18,555 nucleotides of DNA from contig NYZA01000174.1 of the NCBI GenBank assembly GCA_002686955.1, forward strand, positions 1 through 18,555, given 5' to 3'. Every line of letters starts with the position of its first letter. The first letter of the stretch is position 1. Source of the stretch: Gemmatimonadota bacterium. Lineage in GTDB: Bacteria > GCA-2686955. The position numbers and the translations under genes were made by a program. The notes beneath the pieces were generated by a model. The model did not search any database and had not been told where the DNA came from. It worked only from the letters and a program-made list of their open reading frames with translations. This document shows, piece by piece, positions 2,604 to 11,299 of this stretch.

Positions 2604-4055
2604 TTGACGCGACGGCCAACACTTCAGGCGCCTCTGACGGAGCTCGAATCCGCCCAGGCATTGATCGACGCGATCGACGTCCCCGCGGTGCTCACGAGCC
2701 GCGCGGGGGAGACGCTCCACGTAAACGACGCCGCCACGCGGATCTTGACGCAGCTCCCTGAGGCGGGCTCGCTCTTCGATTCGCTCTGCGTAGGCACCGA
2801 CGAGGAGGAGCTGACTCCGCCCACGACCGGCACACTCGTACTCGAGACGCGCCGGATCGAGTGGACGGCTCGCCCCATCGAGAGCTCCTCGGACGACTGC
2901 GTCATCTTCACTTTTCATGACCGCGACGAACGCGACTCGCTGGCGCGCCAGGTGGCCCATCTCGATCGCCTCGCGTCGGTCGGTGAGGTCATGGCCAGCA
3001 TCGCCCATGAGCTGAACAATCCCCTGACCTCGATCATCATGGCGATGGAGGTCCTCCCCAAGAAGGGGCGTGAGGCCAGGCGGGAGCTCTTGCGGCAGGT
3101 GCGCAAAGACACCGCCCGCGCCCTGGATCTGGCGCGCAAGGTGCTGGCATTCGGGCGGAACGGCTCGGGTGGTGTAGAGCTGATTCGACCAAACGCCTTG
3201 CTGAAATCGGCGCTCGATCTCGTGGGAGCCGACCTGCGCAAGAGCGATATTCAGGTTCGCTTCCGCCAGGGGCGCGGGCTGCCGCTGATCGAAGGTGATC
3301 TCGTCGAGTTGCGACAGGTGCTCGTGAATCTGCTGATCAACGCGCGTCAGGCACTGGAGGGCTGCGGAGCGCGGCGCGAAGTCGAGCTGAGATCGCGACG
3401 CGGGAGCCGGCACGTAGAGATCGAAGTGAGCGATTCGGGGGCCGGCATCGAACCGGCTGTGCTGCGCAGGATCTTCGAGCCCTTCTATACTACCAAGCCG
3501 AAAGGTGAGGGGACGGGGCTGGGGTTGTGTATCTCTCGGGGCATCATCGAGGCGCACCGCGGCGAGCTCTCGGTGCGAAGCGCGCCCGGCGAAGGCTCGA
3601 CCTTTACGATTACCTTGCCCCCAGCGAAGGCGACCCCCTCCGACTCCGCGCCCGCGCCTGAACCCCTGGATGAAGTCGAATGCGACGGGACGAAACGGGT
3701 TCTCGTTGTCGACGACGAGGAAGTGCTTGCGGAGCTGCTTCGCGAGATCCTCGAAGAGGCCGGTTACGAGGTGGATACCGCTTGTTCGGTGGAGTCGGCG
3801 CTCGAACGCATCAACGCCCAGGTGTTCGACATCATCATGTCGGATGTCAGGATGCCGGGCCTCGGTGGGCGCGACCTCTATCGGAAGCTGGAGCAGGACG
3901 AGCCTTCATTGGCCCGTCGCATGGTGTTCATGACCGGAGATGTGGTCAGCCCGGAGACGGTGCGTTTCTTCGAGAGAACGCGCGCCCCCCACCTCTCGAA
4001 GCCGTTCCGGCTGAGGGAGCTCAACCAGGCGCTACGTTCCCTGAATCAGAGCTGA
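2604..4055 (+). CDS. Cytosolic hybrid histidine kinase (PAS-like, HisKA, HATPase_c, REC)
   Basis: This 483-aa sensor kinase has no membrane segment, so it should sense a cytoplasmic signal or partner. Residues 12-105 form a PAS-like domain. HisKA follows with H135 in SIAHELNNP as the predicted phospho-acceptor. The HATPase_c domain has an N box (LVNLLINARQA, about 239-250), G1 (SDSGAG), F (FEPFYTTK) and G2 (GEGTGLGLCIS). A C-terminal REC domain (about 365-480) has acidic DDEE, acceptor D414 in MSDVRMPG, and K466 in SKPF. All catalytic residues are present, so an internal His-to-Asp relay is likely. The TTG start is supported by GGAGA (2591-2595) 8 nt upstream. The last 35 bp overlap the oppositely oriented cyclase gene. 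No output domain follows the REC, so a separate phosphotransfer partner, or REC feedback, is expected. Its cognate regulator is unknown; the adjacent REC-GGEEF protein is a candidate only by proximity. Confidence 0.93.
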   Translation: MTRRPTLQAPLTELESAQALIDAIDVPAVLTSRAGETLHVNDAATRILTQLPEAGSLFDSLCVGTDEEELTPPTTGTLVLETRRIEWTARPIESSSDDCVIFTFHDRDERDSLARQVAHLDRLASVGEVMASIAHELNNPLTSIIMAMEVLPKKGREARRELLRQVRKDTARALDLARKVLAFGRNGSGGVELIRPNALLKSALDLVGADLRKSDIQVRFRQGRGLPLIEGDLVELRQVLVNLLINARQALEGCGARREVELRSRRGSRHVEIEVSDSGAGIEPAVLRRIFEPFYTTKPKGEGTGLGLCISRGIIEAHRGELSVRSAPGEGSTFTITLPPAKATPSDSAPAPEPLDEVECDGTKRVLVVDDEEVLAELLREILEEAGYEVDTACSVESALERINAQVFDIIMSDVRMPGLGGRDLYRKLEQDEPSLARRMVFMTGDVVSPETVRFFERTRAPHLSKPFRLRELNQALRSLNQS

Positions 4056-5019
4056 CCGGGCCGGACTCCTCTTCCGCGGGCACAAGCCCTTCGACTGGTG
4101 CCGATCCCGAGGCGACCAGGACGCGGTTTCTTCCCGAGCTCTTCGCTTCGTACAACGCCTCGTCGGCCAGCGCGATCAGATCCGCCGGGCTCTGAGCCTG
4201 CTCCCCGAATTGCGCGATGCCGACGCTCACCGTGACATGGAACGACTCGCCGGCGAAGCTCATCGTTTCCGATTCGATCCTCGCTCGGAGACGTTCCGCG
4301 ACTCGGCGGGCACCGTGGGAGTCGGCGTCCGGCAGTATGACGCAGAACTCCTCACCACCGAAGCGAGCCACGACATCACAGCGGCGCACCGAAGAGACCA
4401 CCGACGTGGCGACCGAGCGGAGCACCTCGTCGCCGCAGAGATGCCCGCGTGTATCGTTCACCCGCTTGAAATGATCGATGTCGACCATTGCCACCGCGAG
4501 CGGAGCGTGAACCCGTTCCAATCGTGCGACCTCTTCCTCCAGGCGAGCGTCCAGATAGCCGCGGTTGAAGAGACCGGTGAGCGCGTCGCGAATCGATACC
4601 TCCTTGAGAGACTGATTGCTGACCCTCAGCTGATCCTGCTGTCCCTTGAGCCGAAGCTGAGCACGGACACGCGCCAGCAGCTCTTTCGGGCTGAAAGGCT
4701 TGGAGATGTAGTCGTCTGCGCCGGCGTCGAGCCCCTCCACCCTGTCGCCCTCTTTCGCGCGGGCGCTGACCAGAATGATCGACGCATTCGAGAGCGATTC
4801 CTCGCTCTTCAAACGACGACAGACTTCGAGGCCGTCCATGCGAGGCATATTGATGTCGAGGAGGATCAGATCGGGCGCGGTTTCGGTCGCCCGTTCGAGC
4901 GCCTCGACACCGTCGCGCGCCACGGCGACCCGGTAGTCGTTCCTCGTGAGCAGCTGCTCCAAAATGAAGATGTTGTCTTTGTGATCGTCGACGACCAGGA
5001 TTCTCGCGCCATCGGCCAT
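4021..5019 (-). CDS. Response-regulator diguanylate cyclase (REC-GGEEF, PleD/WspR-like)
   Basis: This 332-aa protein makes c-di-GMP from two GTP under control of receiver phosphorylation. The N-terminal REC (about 5-122) has VVDD at 9-12, acceptor D55 in LLDINMPRMDG and K107 in SKPFSP. A helical linker leads to a GGDEF domain beginning at DALTGLFNRG (145-154). The active-site loop reads GGEEF (221-225). An allosteric inhibitory I-site, RxxD, is intact at R212-D215, exactly five residues before it, so product feedback is expected. A Ser/Pro/Glu-rich tail follows. The ATG at 5019 is preceded by GGAGG with 9 nt spacing; a longer reading frame to 5259 is not protein-like. It lies 97 bp downstream of the lamin-tail gene on the same strand, so both may share the sigma-54-type promoter at 6111-6127. 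It overlaps the kinase gene tail-to-tail. Confidence 0.94.
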   Translation of the reverse strand: MADGARILVVDDHKDNIFILEQLLTRNDYRVAVARDGVEALERATETAPDLILLDINMPRMDGLEVCRRLKSEESLSNASIILVSARAKEGDRVEGLDAGADDYISKPFSPKELLARVRAQLRLKGQQDQLRVSNQSLKEVSIRDALTGLFNRGYLDARLEEEVARLERVHAPLAVAMVDIDHFKRVNDTRGHLCGDEVLRSVATSVVSSVRRCDVVARFGGEEFCVILPDADSHGARRVAERLRARIESETMSFAGESFHVTVSVGIAQFGEQAQSPADLIALADEALYEAKSSGRNRVLVASGSAPVEGLVPAEEESGPVSSDSGNVAPG

Positions 5020-5116
5020 AGAGACGCCCCTCCGGTTGAAGCTCCCCACCTCTACTATTCGGCATCGCGCAACGCGAACATGACCGTCTTGGAGGCGAAA
5101 CCTCGTTCGAAGGCTT

Positions 5117-6064
5117 CTACCTCTGCGCCTGCTGGTCGACCGTCGACGCGTCGCTTCCCACATCGACCGTTCCGAGGGTGAACTCGACGATCTCCGGCGC
5201 GAGCGATTGGTTCTGCCCGAACGAGACCTGCTTGACCAGCCAATCGCCCGATGGCGCATGCTCGGGGATCTTCCAGCTCTGATGGAAGGTCTGCTGCTCC
5301 CCCGGGCCCAGCGAGAAGACGATTCCCGGCTCGACGATCGCTTCGTCTTCTTCGGGGTCGATCGTGCGTGTCTGCAGCTTTCCCGCTGCCGGGTACGGGC
5401 TGCGGTTGCCTAGGGTGGTCCAGAGATGCAGGAACTCCAACTGCTGGTAGTACTCCCGCTCCTTCTGCACCCGCATGTGGACGGCCACAGCGGAGTTCTG
5501 AAGCGCCGGCGTGCCCACGATCCACGGGCTCTTGCTGGGTCGCCAGAAGATCTCGTTGTGGTCGAAGAACGAGACGATCTTCTCGAGCGAGGGTCCGTCG
5601 CCGTCACCGCCGATAGAGTTGATGTAGGTGATCTCGTCCTGAAATCCGCCGCCCTCGTCCTCCAGCCGAAGGGTCACACGATGTGGCTGGATCAGCCCGA
5701 AATCGTGCCCTTCGGCATCGATGATCGTGGCTTGGTGGTGCGGGAAGCCGTTGCCGGAATGGTAATAGGCGGAGTAGAAGAGCCCGTCCTGGTCTGGATC
5801 GCTCAGATCCTGACGCGCCACAATCAGAAAGCCGTGGGGGGCGATTCGACACTGCGGGAGGGTGAAACCGTTGAGAGTCCATCCGGTCAGGGTCTGGATC
5901 TCGCCGCGGGCGTTGTAGAGCTCGATCCACTGAAAGTCTTCGGGTCCGCCCATTCGCTCATGGGGGTGGTACATCACCTCGTTGATGAAGACACCGACTC
6001 TCTGCGGCTCGTATGGCTCGCCGCTGACCGCCAGCGCGGCCGCGAGCATGAAGGGATAGGTCAT
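5117..6064 (-). CDS. Secreted lamin-tail-domain (LTD) protein
   Basis: The product is about 315 aa, with a short hydrophobic N-terminus (MTYPFMLAAALAVSG) resembling a signal peptide, though it lacks basic residues. Residues 25-190 match the bacterial lamin-tail domain pattern: INEVMYHP, then DFQWIELYN, GWTLNGF, HGFLIVARQ and a GPSLEKI block. A second beta-rich region (about 205-300) follows. Bacterial LTD proteins are extracellular or surface proteins, often in nucleases, lipoproteins and adhesive multidomain proteins; no nuclease motif or sorting tail is seen here. The ATG at 6064 has GGGAG (6076-6080) 11 nt upstream; an in-frame ATG at 6082 is an alternative with a poorer site and six more residues. 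A predicted sigma-54 promoter sits directly upstream. The molecular role is unknown. Confidence 0.85.
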   Translation of the reverse strand: MTYPFMLAAALAVSGEPYEPQRVGVFINEVMYHPHERMGGPEDFQWIELYNARGEIQTLTGWTLNGFTLPQCRIAPHGFLIVARQDLSDPDQDGLFYSAYYHSGNGFPHHQATIIDAEGHDFGLIQPHRVTLRLEDEGGGFQDEITYINSIGGDGDGPSLEKIVSFFDHNEIFWRPSKSPWIVGTPALQNSAVAVHMRVQKEREYYQQLEFLHLWTTLGNRSPYPAAGKLQTRTIDPEEDEAIVEPGIVFSLGPGEQQTFHQSWKIPEHAPSGDWLVKQVSFGQNQSLAPEIVEFTLGTVDVGSDASTVDQQAQR

Positions 6065-6110
6065 GAGTGGGCAAGCTCCCATTGGGAATCAGTGCATCCG
6101 CTACGACTTG

Positions 6111-6127
6111 GGCAAGTATCGCGCCAG
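6111..6127 (-). promoter_or_regulatory. Candidate sigma-54 (-24/-12) promoter for the LTD gene
   Basis: On the minus strand the sequence reads CTGGCGCGATACTTGCC. Against the sigma-54 consensus YTGGCACG-N4-TTGCW it keeps the -24 GG, the -12 GC and the GG-N10-GC spacing, and differs only by A to G within the -24 box and W to C at the end. Transcription would start near 6100, giving a leader of about 36 nt before the ATG at 6064. The gene immediately upstream encodes a sigma-54 activator, which supports the call. Motif matching by eye only. Confidence 0.6.
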
Positions 6128-6191
6128 TCGAGCCAAGACCCCGCAGGCTCTTTGACGGTGGCGCCCAATGCTACCCCCTCGCTGGGAAGGG

Positions 6192-6205
6192 CGACGAAAT
6201 TGTCG
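6192..6205. promoter_or_regulatory. Minor dyad upstream of the candidate sigma-54 promoter
   Basis: CGAC-N6-GTCG (plus strand CGACGAAATTGTCG) is centred about 98 bp upstream of the predicted LTD transcription start, a position typical of enhancer sites. Arms are only 4 bp, so chance occurrence is quite possible. Confidence 0.25.
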
Positions 6206-6220
6206 AAAACGTGAACATGA

Positions 6221-6238
6221 TTGCGCGGATCTGCGCAA
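6221..6238. promoter_or_regulatory. 18-bp inverted repeat, candidate activator binding site
   Basis: TTGCGCGGATCTGCGCAA is palindromic at 16 of 18 positions; only the pair 27/32 (bases 6227 and 6232) mismatches. It lies about 130 bp upstream of the predicted sigma-54 start and just after the stop codon of the sigma-54 activator gene. Length and symmetry resemble NtrC-family enhancer sites. Alternatively the same dyad could form an mRNA hairpin ending the activator transcript, but no U-run follows. Confidence 0.45.
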
Positions 6239-6247
6239 GTTCGGCGC

Positions 6248-9200
6248 TCATCTCCGCCGTGGATTCTCGATTCCGTGCTTCTTCATCTTGTATCGGAGCA
6301 CCCGCTCGCTGATACCGAGCTTTCTCGCCGCCCGGGTTTGGATCCATTCGGCCTGCTCGAGCGCCGCGATCAGGATCTGCCTCTCCGTTCCGCTCAAGGT
6401 CTTGCTCGGCTCAGCCTTGGTCTCGACGAGCCAGGGAGGAAGATCGCGGGCACTCAGAGCGTCCCCGCGGCACATGACCACCATCCCCTCGAGCGTGTTC
6501 TGGAGCTCTCGCACGTTCCCGGGCCAGTCGTGGGCGAGCAGCGCGTCGCGCACCTCGGGCGAGATCGAGTCGACGCCTCGTCCGATTCGTTCTTTCATCT
6601 TCTCGAGGAAATGGGCCGTGAGAGGGACGATATCGGAGCGTCGCTCACGCAAGGGCGGCAGCGAAATCGGAACGATGTTGATCCGAAAGAAGAGATCCTC
6701 GCGGAATCTCCCTTCGTCGACTTCACTCCTCAGATTTGTGTTCGTGGCGCAGACCACGCGCACATCGACCCTTCGGGGACGGGTGTCGCCCAGTCGGCGG
6801 ACCTCGCTCTCCTGAAGCACTCTCAGCAGCTTCGTCTGGAGTCCCGGTTCCATATTGGTGATCTCATCGAGGAAGATCGTGCCCCCGTCGGCCTCCTCGA
6901 AGAGCCCCGCCTTGTTCGATACCGCCCCGCTGAATGCTCCCCGGCGGTGGCCGAAGAGCTCCGACTCGATGATCGTGGGCTGCAATGCACCGCAATCCAC
7001 CGCCACGAAACGTTTGTCGGCACGATCGCTCTCGTAGTGGATCGCCCGCGCGAGGACCTCCTTGCCGGTCCCGGTTTCTCCGAGCAGAAGCACGGTCGAG
7101 CGGGTCTTGGCGACCTTTCGAACCACCTCGGCGACCCGCTGCATCGCGGGACTGCGCCCGACGACGCTCGGAAGCTCCCATTCCTCACGCGCTTCTCGTT
7201 TGAGCTCCCGGTTTTCTTCAACCAACCTCTGCGTCAGAGCGGCGTTCTCGACGGCGACAGCGGCCAGCGAGGCGAAGACCTGCATGAAGACGGCGTCGGA
7301 ACGATCGAAGCGATTGACGACGCTGCGGTTGTCGACATAGATGGTTCCGATCGCCCTCCCGCGCGTCACCATCGGGACGCAGATGAACGATACGATTCTG
7401 TAGCGCGCCACGCTCTGGAAGTGCTTGAAATCCTCGTCACTCTGCGCGTCATCGCTGAAGAGCACGGTTTGCTCGGCCAGGGTTCGCTCCAGGATCGTCC
7501 TGGAATGATGAGCGGCGTCCTCGCTCGTCTCGGCGTCCATGTTGCGCGCCACTCGAATCTCGAGACCGCCGTCGTTCGGCTCGACCAGGAAGATCTGGCC
7601 GCGCTCCGCGCCGATCGTCTCCAGCACGATCGACAGTGCACCCTCCAGCACCTCGTCGGGATCGCCGAGCCCGGTGAGCATCGAGCCCACCCTCCGCAGG
7701 ATTTGAAGGGGATCGGGGTCGGTCCGCGAGGGCTTCGCCGCTTCGGATCCGCTCTGACGCAATCGATTGCCCATGTCGTCGAAGCCCTCTCGCGCGAGCC
7801 TGCGCGCTCTCTCCGCATCCGATGCATCGCCGCAACATTCAGCCGCATCACCCAAGGCAGCATATGCCAAGCTCTGCGCCAGTCGGCCGCCCCATCGGGC
7901 GTGATGCTCGATCGCGCGCTCGAAACGCTCCCGAGCCTCGGCCGGACGACCTCTGGCCGCGAGCAGCTCTCCCTCCATCCTCAGACACTCACCCTCTTCG
8001 GGGTCGCCCACTCCGCGTCGCAGCGAAGTCCATGCCTCTCCATGGTGGACCATAGCCTTTGGCAGATCGCCGGCCGCGATGTGGACCTGGGCCAAGCGCC
8101 TGTGAATCGGCGCGTTGAGTGAGGGTGCGACACCACCATCGCGGCTCAGCTCGAGCACCTGGTCGGCCAGACGGCACCCCTCCGCTCCCTCGCCGAGAGC
8201 GAGCCTGGCATCGATCGCGGCGAGCAGCGCGTGGATCGTTCGCGGCCCCTCGCCCCCTTGAAGATCGACCGCCGTCATGGCCGTGGACAGCGCCAACTCC
8301 GGATCGCCCGACGCTAGATGTGCCGCCGCGCGATGCTCGAGAACCGAGAGGCGCAGGCTCTCGTTGCTGGCATCGCTCGCGTGGGCGCTCGCCTCGTCCA
8401 GCAGCCGATGCGCGCGACCGGGATCGCCCGCGCGGAGCACGATCGACGCAAGATTGACGCGCGAGTTGGCCACGCCCTCCGCGTCATCGAGATCGTTCTT
8501 GATCTCGATCGATTGCTCCAGACAGGCGATCGCGTCATCGAGCTTTCCGCGAGCGGAGTGCAGGAGCGCGAGGTTGTTCAGGGTCTTCGAGATGTCGGCC
8601 GGGATCGCCAGCCGCCGCCGGAGCACGAGCGCCCGCTCGAGATGGCGCGCCGCCGTCGCGTGCTCCCCCTTCGTGTAGTAGAGCGCCCCCAGGTTGTTGT
8701 GCGAGTCGGCGATCCTCTTCGGATCGCCGATCCTCATCCGGTACCGCAGGCTTTGCTCCAGCGCGGCGACCGAGACTTCGCCGTCTCCTGCGCGATGCGC
8801 GGCGATTCCGAGATTGTCCCATGCGGTCGCCTGCTTCGCGAGGTCTCCGAGATCGTCCTGGAGCTTCAGGCCCCGTTCGAAGCGCTCCCGAGCCCGCGAC
8901 CACTCCGAGCGCGTCATGGCGGCGATTCCGAGATTGTTCAAGGCGGCGGCTTCCTCCTTCCGGTCACCCTCCGCGCGGGACGACTCGAGCACCCTTCGCA
9001 GCTCCCTTTCGGCTTCCTCTCCCCTCCCCTGTGCGAGCAGCAACGATCCCAGCACGTTGCGGCTCTCCCTTTCTTCCGGGGAGGAGCGTGCGGCGGCTTC
9101 GAGAGCCGCCTCCGCGCGCCTCAGCGCCCCGGCGGCGTCGCCACGACCCTCCTGTATTCGGGCCAGCCGCAGCGAGGCTCTCGCAACCTCGGCCCGCGAT

Positions 9201-11299
9201 CCCGTGCAGCTCGAAGACGCCTCGAGCCGCACCGACTCCAGATCGACTTCGGCTTCGTCGAAGCGGCCGCATCTGGCGAGCAGCTCCCCCCGAATGCGAA
9301 GGCGCCGTGGACCGGGATCTTCAGGGGCATCGGCGATCATCTTCAGCGCGTCATCGACACGACCGAGCCGCCCCAGACACTCGGCCAGCTCCTCTCTGAT
9401 CCGCTCGAGCCGATTCGGATCGGGGGCGGATCTGATCGCCCGCTCCAGCGCCTCGATCCGCTCTTCGGTCGACGCGTCGGGGTGGCGAGCGGCGAGCAGC
9501 GAGTCGGAGTGAGCGCGTGTGGAATCTCCGGCCATCTCCCCGTGCCGGCTTCGTTCCAAGATCTCCTGAGGAGTCACGTATCCTCTCAGCGCACCGCCGA
9601 TCGCGCCGTGTAAGGTCTCACGTTCTGACTGCGTCATTCCCGCGGAGAGGCGCTTGCCCAGATCGGCGAGCGCAATGGCGAAAAGAGGGCTCCCCGTGTC
9701 GCTGCCGCTTCGCTGCGTCACGACTCCGATCCGAGCCAGCGATTCCAACTCCTTCCGGCTCTCGTCTTCCGAGAGATCGCGCGCCATGGCGACGACGTTG
9801 CGGCTAACCGGCAACTGCAGAAGCGCCAGCAGATTCAGCACCGAGCGTGTGGTCCCGGGGAGTGTGGCCACCCGCTCGAGGAGCAGGTCGACCACTGAAT
9901 CGGGGATGCGCGCCGAGCCGGGCGGACCTGATTCCATCACCGCCGAGAGAAAGCGGGGGTTTCCACCGGTCGAGCGATGCAGCTTCACCGAGAAGCGTTC
10001 CGCGGCTTCGCGCCCCCAGACTCGCGTGGCCAGGATCATCACCTCTCGCCGGTCGAGAGGAGGCAGTTCGATCACCCGCTCGTTGTCGGCTCCGGTTGGG
10101 TGATCGCTGAGTAGGATCAGCGGCAGGTCGAAGGCGGCCGCGGCGCACTGCCGGGCGACCACCATGGCGTCGGGCTTGCCCCGCGTCTCCAGGGCGAGCA
10201 GCGTCGGGCGGTCTTCGCGACCCACCCGATCCACACTCGCCAGCACCGCGTCGAGAGGGTCGGTCTCGAAGGGCGACCGGCCCGTCGTGAACGAGCCCAA
10301 CGCGCTCCTCAGGCGCGCGGCGAAACCGCTTCCTTTCGCGGCTACGCGAGCCGCCGGCAGCCCCTGGAGCTGGGCGCGGCGCACGGCCTCGATCAACAGG
10401 CGGCTCACTCCGCCACCCTCCGCCGCGCGGAGCACGAAGATCCGCCCGCTGCCCTCCCGTCTCGCCGATTCGAGAGCGCAGGCGATCGCATCGAGGATCG
10501 ATTCACGCCCGGTGAACTCGCGGTCGCCCCCGCGCGGCGGATCCGCCGAGATCGGCATCGAGTCGATGGCCTGCTCGGCGCATTCACAGCGCTCGGCCGG
10601 ATCGGGCGCCAAGAGCGATGCGGCCCAGTCGCCCCAGGCGCCTCCTACTCTTTTGCGGGCACGCTCTACGATCGCGTCCCCCTCTTCGATCTTCTCCTGC
10701 GCGAGCGCGTTTCCGCCCGGCGAGCGAAAGGGCAGCCCGCCGGACCAGAGGTGCACGAGCAGGAGACCGACCGAATAAAGATCGGCACGTTGGTCGATCG
10801 TCTCGCTACGCAGGAGCTCGGGCGCGAAGTACGGGATGGTTCCGGCGATGCCGTCTCCACGGTCGCCGATCTCTCGTGCAAGACCGAGATCGACGAGGCG
10901 AGGAGGGGAGCCCGGCAGGTAGAGGAGGTTGTCCGGCTTGAGATCGAGGTAGACTAGGCTGTTTCGGTGGAGGTAGGCCAGCGCGTGCAGAATCGCTCCG
11001 AGGATCTTGGCGAGCTCCGCCGCGCCGGTCGGCCCCAGAGGCGCCGGCGCCCCACCCTCCACCCAGGTCTGCGTGAAGGCGGCGCGCCCTCCCGGCTCGA
11101 CCCCCAGGTCGATTCCGACTGGCAATACGGAGTGTCGAAGGCGAGAGAGCAGGCCGAACTCTTGGCGTATTCGGTCGTCGTGTTCCGGCGCCGAGCTCGT
11201 CTTCAGCGCCACAATTTCGCCGCTGCCGCGATCCCGGACCCGACGGACCCTCGCCATCCCACCTATCCGCGGCTCCCCCAGATCCTCGAATCTCTCCAC
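6248..11299 (-). CDS. Ser/Thr kinase - degenerate ATPase - TPR - GAF - sigma-54 activator - Fis HTH fusion regulator
   Basis: This 1683-aa protein has six modules. (1) Ser/Thr kinase, residues 4-240: Gly loop IGGMARV, K33, catalytic D119 in YLDLKPDN (the usual HRD is YLD), D137 in DLG, and APE at 159-161. (2) NTPase-like region 258-560 whose expected P-loop reads AEGGGVSRLL, with valine where lysine should be, so ATP use is doubtful. (3) TPR superhelix about 610-1175, with clear 40-residue repeats such as ALNNLGIAA and SHNNLGALY. (4) GAF, 1195-1360. (5) Sigma-54 AAA+ domain, 1379-1625: Walker A GETGTGKE (1407-1414), sigma-contact loop GAFSGA (1454-1459), Walker B GGTIFLDE. (6) Fis-type HTH, about 1640-1680. 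It should drive open-complex formation at sigma-54 promoters, with kinase, TPR and GAF parts as inputs. The GTG start is preceded by GGAGAGG with 10 nt spacing. Divergent from the glycosyltransferase gene across 135 bp. Confidence 0.93.
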   Translation of the reverse strand: MERFEDLGEPRIGGMARVRRVRDRGSGEIVALKTSSAPEHDDRIRQEFGLLSRLRHSVLPVGIDLGVEPGGRAAFTQTWVEGGAPAPLGPTGAAELAKILGAILHALAYLHRNSLVYLDLKPDNLLYLPGSPPRLVDLGLAREIGDRGDGIAGTIPYFAPELLRSETIDQRADLYSVGLLLVHLWSGGLPFRSPGGNALAQEKIEEGDAIVERARKRVGGAWGDWAASLLAPDPAERCECAEQAIDSMPISADPPRGGDREFTGRESILDAIACALESARREGSGRIFVLRAAEGGGVSRLLIEAVRRAQLQGLPAARVAAKGSGFAARLRSALGSFTTGRSPFETDPLDAVLASVDRVGREDRPTLLALETRGKPDAMVVARQCAAAAFDLPLILLSDHPTGADNERVIELPPLDRREVMILATRVWGREAAERFSVKLHRSTGGNPRFLSAVMESGPPGSARIPDSVVDLLLERVATLPGTTRSVLNLLALLQLPVSRNVVAMARDLSEDESRKELESLARIGVVTQRSGSDTGSPLFAIALADLGKRLSAGMTQSERETLHGAIGGALRGYVTPQEILERSRHGEMAGDSTRAHSDSLLAARHPDASTEERIEALERAIRSAPDPNRLERIREELAECLGRLGRVDDALKMIADAPEDPGPRRLRIRGELLARCGRFDEAEVDLESVRLEASSSCTGSRAEVARASLRLARIQEGRGDAAGALRRAEAALEAAARSSPEERESRNVLGSLLLAQGRGEEAERELRRVLESSRAEGDRKEEAAALNNLGIAAMTRSEWSRARERFERGLKLQDDLGDLAKQATAWDNLGIAAHRAGDGEVSVAALEQSLRYRMRIGDPKRIADSHNNLGALYYTKGEHATAARHLERALVLRRRLAIPADISKTLNNLALLHSARGKLDDAIACLEQSIEIKNDLDDAEGVANSRVNLASIVLRAGDPGRAHRLLDEASAHASDASNESLRLSVLEHRAAAHLASGDPELALSTAMTAVDLQGGEGPRTIHALLAAIDARLALGEGAEGCRLADQVLELSRDGGVAPSLNAPIHRRLAQVHIAAGDLPKAMVHHGEAWTSLRRGVGDPEEGECLRMEGELLAARGRPAEARERFERAIEHHARWGGRLAQSLAYAALGDAAECCGDASDAERARRLAREGFDDMGNRLRQSGSEAAKPSRTDPDPLQILRRVGSMLTGLGDPDEVLEGALSIVLETIGAERGQIFLVEPNDGGLEIRVARNMDAETSEDAAHHSRTILERTLAEQTVLFSDDAQSDEDFKHFQSVARYRIVSFICVPMVTRGRAIGTIYVDNRSVVNRFDRSDAVFMQVFASLAAVAVENAALTQRLVEENRELKREAREEWELPSVVGRSPAMQRVAEVVRKVAKTRSTVLLLGETGTGKEVLARAIHYESDRADKRFVAVDCGALQPTIIESELFGHRRGAFSGAVSNKAGLFEEADGGTIFLDEITNMEPGLQTKLLRVLQESEVRRLGDTRPRRVDVRVVCATNTNLRSEVDEGRFREDLFFRINIVPISLPPLRERRSDIVPLTAHFLEKMKERIGRGVDSISPEVRDALLAHDWPGNVRELQNTLEGMVVMCRGDALSARDLPPWLVETKAEPSKTLSGTERQILIAALEQAEWIQTRAARKLGISERVLRYKMKKHGIENPRRR

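Follow-up and report, generated by a model that had tools for sequence, protein, structure and literature searches.

The enhancers of NifA carry the consensus TGT-N10-ACA and, as with other one-component GAF-type sigma-54 activators, lie about 100 bp upstream. NifA-type one-component activators (solved chain 9qq6) share a GAF-AAA+-Fis helix-turn-helix (HTH) order, Walker motifs, and a GAFTGA-type loop, in which a T to S change occurs in the validated activator BkdR, according to the part of PMC3162934 drawn on here. In that same part, sigma-54 control of bacterial exterior components appears as a known theme. For Desulfovibrio vulgaris, the sections of the sigma-54 regulome study considered here describe inverted-repeat or palindromic activator sites upstream of sigma-54 promoters, as well as FlrA-type inverted repeats with arms around a 6-bp spacer, for example yGTCA-N6-TGACr (PMC4641369).

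The window analyzed here (the whole stretch of DNA, 18,555 nucleotides) encodes EBP1, a 1683-aa protein with Ser/Thr kinase, TPR, GAF, sigma-54 activator, and Fis-type HTH regions assigned from Pfam domains (positions 6248–11299 including the stop codon, minus strand). A preliminary description of this DNA had taken the gene product for a sigma-54 activator and its HTH for one of the Fis type, and Pfam bears this out with matches to PF00158 for the AAA+ domain (231 bits) and PF02954 for the HTH (45.8 bits). EBP1 resembles NifA-type activators in domain order and in its Walker A, Walker B, and loop motifs (GETGTGKE, GGTIFLDEI, and GAFSGA, the last with the serine also found in BkdR), and NifA 9qq6 is the closest solved chain for its AAA+ and HTH regions. 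Unlike NifA, EBP1 contains about 1200 extra N-terminal residues with the Ser/Thr kinase and TPRs; the predicted kinase (Pkinase, 98.7 bits) retains the Hanks-type catalytic motifs YLDLKPDN, DLG, and APE. No kinase-EBP fusion of this form was found in a literature search, which does not prove that none exists.

The proposed EBP1 operator has the form TCGAC-N6-GTCGA, in which TGT-N10-ACA is absent by inspection. It shares palindromic arms and a 6-bp spacer with the Desulfovibrio vulgaris and FlrA-type sites, but the arms and targets differ, and a kinase fusion is not described in the sections of PMC4641369 considered here. The predicted EBP1 targets are exported proteins, in line with the sigma-54 exterior theme; the exterior classes listed in the part of PMC3162934 drawn on here include neither LTD proteins nor operons for Cys-rich peptides and thioredoxins. 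The predicted LTD1 circuit appears genuine: a new, well-supported example of a familiar type of sigma-54 circuit, unusual in its kinase fusion and in having exported LTD proteins as targets. EBP1 combines a Ser/Thr kinase and a sigma-54 activator in one protein for which a DNA site and exported targets can both be predicted, and any coupling of the kinase to the activator is approachable in vitro without culturing the organism.

Probable sigma-54 promoter and proposed operator upstream of LTD1

An intergenic gap of 183 bp (6065–6247) separates the stop of EBP1 from the start of LTD1, which encodes a secreted-looking lamin-tail-domain protein of 315 aa (5117–6064, minus strand; ATG at 6064, with an upstream start at 6082 also open). 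Its LTD domain scores 33.9 bits, slightly below the Pfam cut-off of 34.3, while its ortholog and paralogs exceed the cut-off at 47 bits. The -24/-12 element on the minus strand facing LTD1, previously described as near-consensus, has an exact core at 6112–6126 (TGGCGCG-ATAC-TTGC; TGGCGCGATACTTGC), including an exact GG-N10-GC, and nowhere else in the window is TGGCNCG-N4-TTGC matched without a mismatch. Across the genome (G000), 31 exact matches to this core were counted and 11 to the reversed pattern used as a control, so that about two thirds of the exact-core sites exceed chance by this control. At the rate of the reversed control, about 2e-4 sites would be expected on a single strand of the gap. 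The genome encodes rpoN (PF04552, E 7.1e-63), the predicted transcription start at about 6100 lies 36 nt before the ATG, and no sigma-70-like site was found in 4900–6400. Comparison was made within a phylum set of G000 and one relative, G001, both draft genomes 83–85% complete. The LTD1 ortholog in G001 (58%, contig C400) lies behind an unrelated gene and is preceded by a -24/-12-like element, CGGCATGTTTGTTGC, that keeps 9 of 11 core positions in this one relative. We consider the sigma-54 promoter at 6112–6126 very probably real.

The best-conserved island common to the gap and the upstream region of the G001 ortholog is a different site from the dyad emphasized in the preliminary description. 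It lies at 6192–6206 on the minus strand (TCGAC-AATTTC-GTCG), centered about 98 bp upstream of where transcription is predicted to start, and is our candidate for the EBP1 operator, or enhancer. The window copy TTCGACAATTTCGTC and the G001 copy TTCGACAATTTTGTC are identical at 14 of 15 positions, a value reached in 5 of 3000 shuffles, figures that understate the extent of the search since the operator family was defined post hoc. In G001, the site TCGACAATTTTGTCGA stands 97 bp before CGGCATGTTTGTTGC. The window operator carries one arm mismatch and is 74 bp from the -24 GG, compared with 94–100 bp at most other loci.

A matrix built from four operators at other loci ranks 6190–6207 first across the whole window. 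In 78,147 positions around the 29 other exact sigma-54-type sites of G000, no operator-like site scores as high as or higher than the window site, and no operator was found upstream of those 29 sites. When the matrix is applied to a broader and mixed collection of loci, a few sequences equal or exceed this score, so the operator is convincing by position and conservation, not by score alone. Exact matches to TCGACNWWWWNGTCG occur in only three places in G001, two of which are sites of the LTD1-ortholog and peptide-operon set described below; the third, on contig C693, has no good -24/-12 element nearby. The pattern TCGACNNNNNNGTCGA alone was rejected as an operator signature, being too common (92 forward matches in G000) without the AT-rich core. 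Taken together, the operator at 6192–6206 is probably genuine, and its recurrence supports the earlier idea of an enhancer upstream of the LTD promoter. That the whole gap serves as the regulatory region of LTD1, combining a sigma-54 promoter with a nearby EBP1 operator, also appears likely, with slightly less assurance.

The sequences themselves hold a predicted promoter and operator, their recurrence at orthologous targets, rpoN, and intact activator motifs. In the mechanism that we propose, sigma-54 RNA polymerase would sit as a closed complex on the -24/-12 element at 6112–6126, and an EBP1 dimer would bind the palindrome at 6192–6206 through its Fis-type HTH. Once activated, EBP1 would assemble into an AAA+ ring and reach sigma-54 by DNA looping, making contact through the GAFSGA loop; promoter opening would then lead to expression of the secreted LTD protein. 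The same operator would drive a second operon elsewhere in the genome, encoding an exported Cys-rich peptide and a TlpA-like thioredoxin.

Proposed second target operon and alternative readings

The EBP1 ortholog of G001 (71% identity over 476 aligned residues, with an identical recognition helix) does not adjoin the LTD1 ortholog. On contig C782 it faces an operon of an exported-looking, Cys-rich peptide of 77 aa followed by a TlpA-like thioredoxin, and upstream of this operon stand two operators, TCGACAAAGTGTCGA and TCGACAATAATGTCGA, and then the -24/-12 element TGGCACGGCGTCTGC. The orthologous operon of G000 (contig C108) is unlinked to EBP1 and presents CTCGACAAAGTTGTCGAG, CTCGACATAATCGTCGAG, and TGGCACAAGCGATGC in the same order. 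In both genomes the full form TCGAC-N6(AT-rich)-GTCGA recurs in tandem, 94–137 bp before the -24/-12 element, and when the two upstream regions are aligned, operators and -24/-12 elements are among the main conserved islands; sequence identity is 43% between the encoded peptides and 49% between the thioredoxins. EBP1 therefore neighbors a different member of one two-target set in each genome, LTD1 in G000 and the peptide-TlpA operon in G001, which is the strongest evidence that it acts through the operator. The presence of the operator beside the EBP1 ortholog also favors the earlier proposal that the neighboring fusion kinase is the regulator. From this linkage and the identity of the HTH, EBP1 is likely the ligand of the operator, and we infer that it activates LTD1. 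A guess from one sequence has in this way become a testable predicted regulon: in each of two genomes from a little-studied lineage, a single activator and a single operator sequence are paired with two target operons.

Six cysteines are spaced regularly along the small exported-looking peptide, which Pfam does not match in either genome (L146:2234–2458 on C108; L123:986–1219 on C782), and in both genomes the TlpA-like thioredoxin always comes after it. A further LTD-domain protein is encoded after the operon in G000 (L146:3400–4350, C108), so that LTD proteins cluster around the EBP1 regulon in this genome.

The preliminary description had assigned the enhancer role to an 18-bp dyad at 6221–6238 (TTGCGCGGATCTGCGCAA; TTGCGC-GGATCT-GCGCAA, no strand), which is present exactly there, with its center 129.5 bp upstream of the predicted start. 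Binding of EBP1 to this dyad would agree with its perfect 6-bp arms and 6-bp spacer and with its distance of 105 bp from the -24 GG, near the 94–100 bp of other loci. Against it, the scan for TTGCGC-N6-GCGCAA returned a single occurrence in G000, the orthologous gap of G001 holds no counterpart (best match 10/18), and no copy exists at the other targets, including the peptide-TlpA operon. When the gap is shuffled with dinucleotides preserved, 4.6% of the shuffles contain a perfect dyad with 6-bp arms and a 6-bp spacer, a share that rises to 29.5% with spacers of 3–10 allowed. The assignment of the enhancer to this dyad is not supported, and of the gap as first described the promoter element is retained in G001 and the dyad is not. 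We regard EBP1 binding at the dyad as improbable; the dyad is probably incidental, and at most an accessory site.

Equally improbable is a variant in which promoter and operator are real, but the operator belongs to some other activator, with EBP1 working at other sites. Activator domain matches are numerous (about 29–31 per genome, some of them weak), and adjacency of EBP1 and LTD1 alone is no proof of regulation. The swapped linkage speaks against this variant, as does the recognition helix of EBP1, which is unlike those of the other activators compared (a subset of all) except for the remnant of a third activator, EBP3, on G001 contig C743. More doubtful still is mere co-transcription of LTD1 from EBP1 with a chance -24/-12 match and no promoter. 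The two genes do lie on one strand and the gap has no terminator-like site on the minus strand, but an exact core in so short a gap is hardly expected by chance at the rate given above, and the promoter-operator unit is kept in G001, where the LTD1 ortholog does not follow EBP1. The reading of the gap as a sigma-54 promoter with an EBP1 operator is the one carried forward here.

Neighboring cyclase and paralogous activator-LTD pairs

Downstream of LTD1 lies a response regulator-GGDEF diguanylate cyclase gene (4021–5019, minus strand; Pfam Response_reg and GGDEF), possibly on the LTD1 transcript. Its start is 97 bp downstream of the LTD1 stop, no -24/-12 or sigma-70-like site was found between the two genes, and expression by read-through from the LTD1 promoter is possible. 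Beside the LTD1 ortholog of G001, a convergent beta-helix-type ORF takes the place of the cyclase. The nearest cyclase relatives in G001 are only 40–42% identical and none of the reported matches is on the LTD1-ortholog contig, so control of c-di-GMP is not supported by conservation. The earlier suggestion that one circuit governs both LTD1 and the cyclase is thus supported for LTD1, at whose ortholog promoter and operator recur, and is weak for c-di-GMP, the cyclase linkage not being conserved.

Adjacent activator and LTD genes also occur on contigs C135 of G000 and C837 and C743 of G001. On C135 and C837, a 22-bp palindrome comes after the LTD gene (GAGTTCACGAAATTGTGAACTC and AAGTTCACAATTTTGTGAACTT, respectively); it stands 100 bp (C135) or 124 bp (C837) ahead of a -24/-12 element that precedes a gene for a small exported-looking protein. 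EBP2 on C837 and EBP1 have different recognition helices, THRQVCYRIAKYGL and SERVLRYKMKKHGI, and the arms of their proposed operators are also different, although the six AT-rich bases at the core resemble each other. These parallel differences in helix and arms suggest that related activators of one family each use a private operator. EBP2 of G001 likewise carries a kinase domain, as do two further G001 activators. Tentatively, and with less than even confidence, we extend this to a family of activators, in a phylum that has barely been sampled, that unite Ser/Thr kinase, TPR, GAF, and sigma-54 activator parts in a single polypeptide; each would have a palindromic operator of its own and would be dedicated to exported LTD proteins and to operons for Cys-rich peptides and thioredoxins. 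If true, a eukaryotic-like kinase module would directly gate sigma-54 transcription.

Several observations accompany these paralogs. An LTD paralog on G001 contig C780 has a -24/-12 candidate, and a clear operator was not found there. On C743 (L065:1–352), the end of the third activator, with an HTH near that of EBP1, comes before a third LTD gene; TTCGCC-GAWWTG-GTCG sites recur in the gap between them, and a -24/-12 candidate lies at 352. This pair was left out of the evidence for the operator, its related sites being imperfect. On C135 of G000, the EBP2 gene runs straight into LTD2 (L127:3936–3946); compared with the intact C837 pair of G001, EBP2 lacks its last ~150 residues (the AAA+ end and the HTH) and LTD2 its first ~52, a junction that reflects either a deletion or a misassembly. 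Two more Ser/Thr kinase-sigma-54 activator fusions are encoded in G001 (L125 on C412 and L126 on C244), both cut by contig ends, and the C412 fusion gene and a GGDEF gene are divergently oriented.
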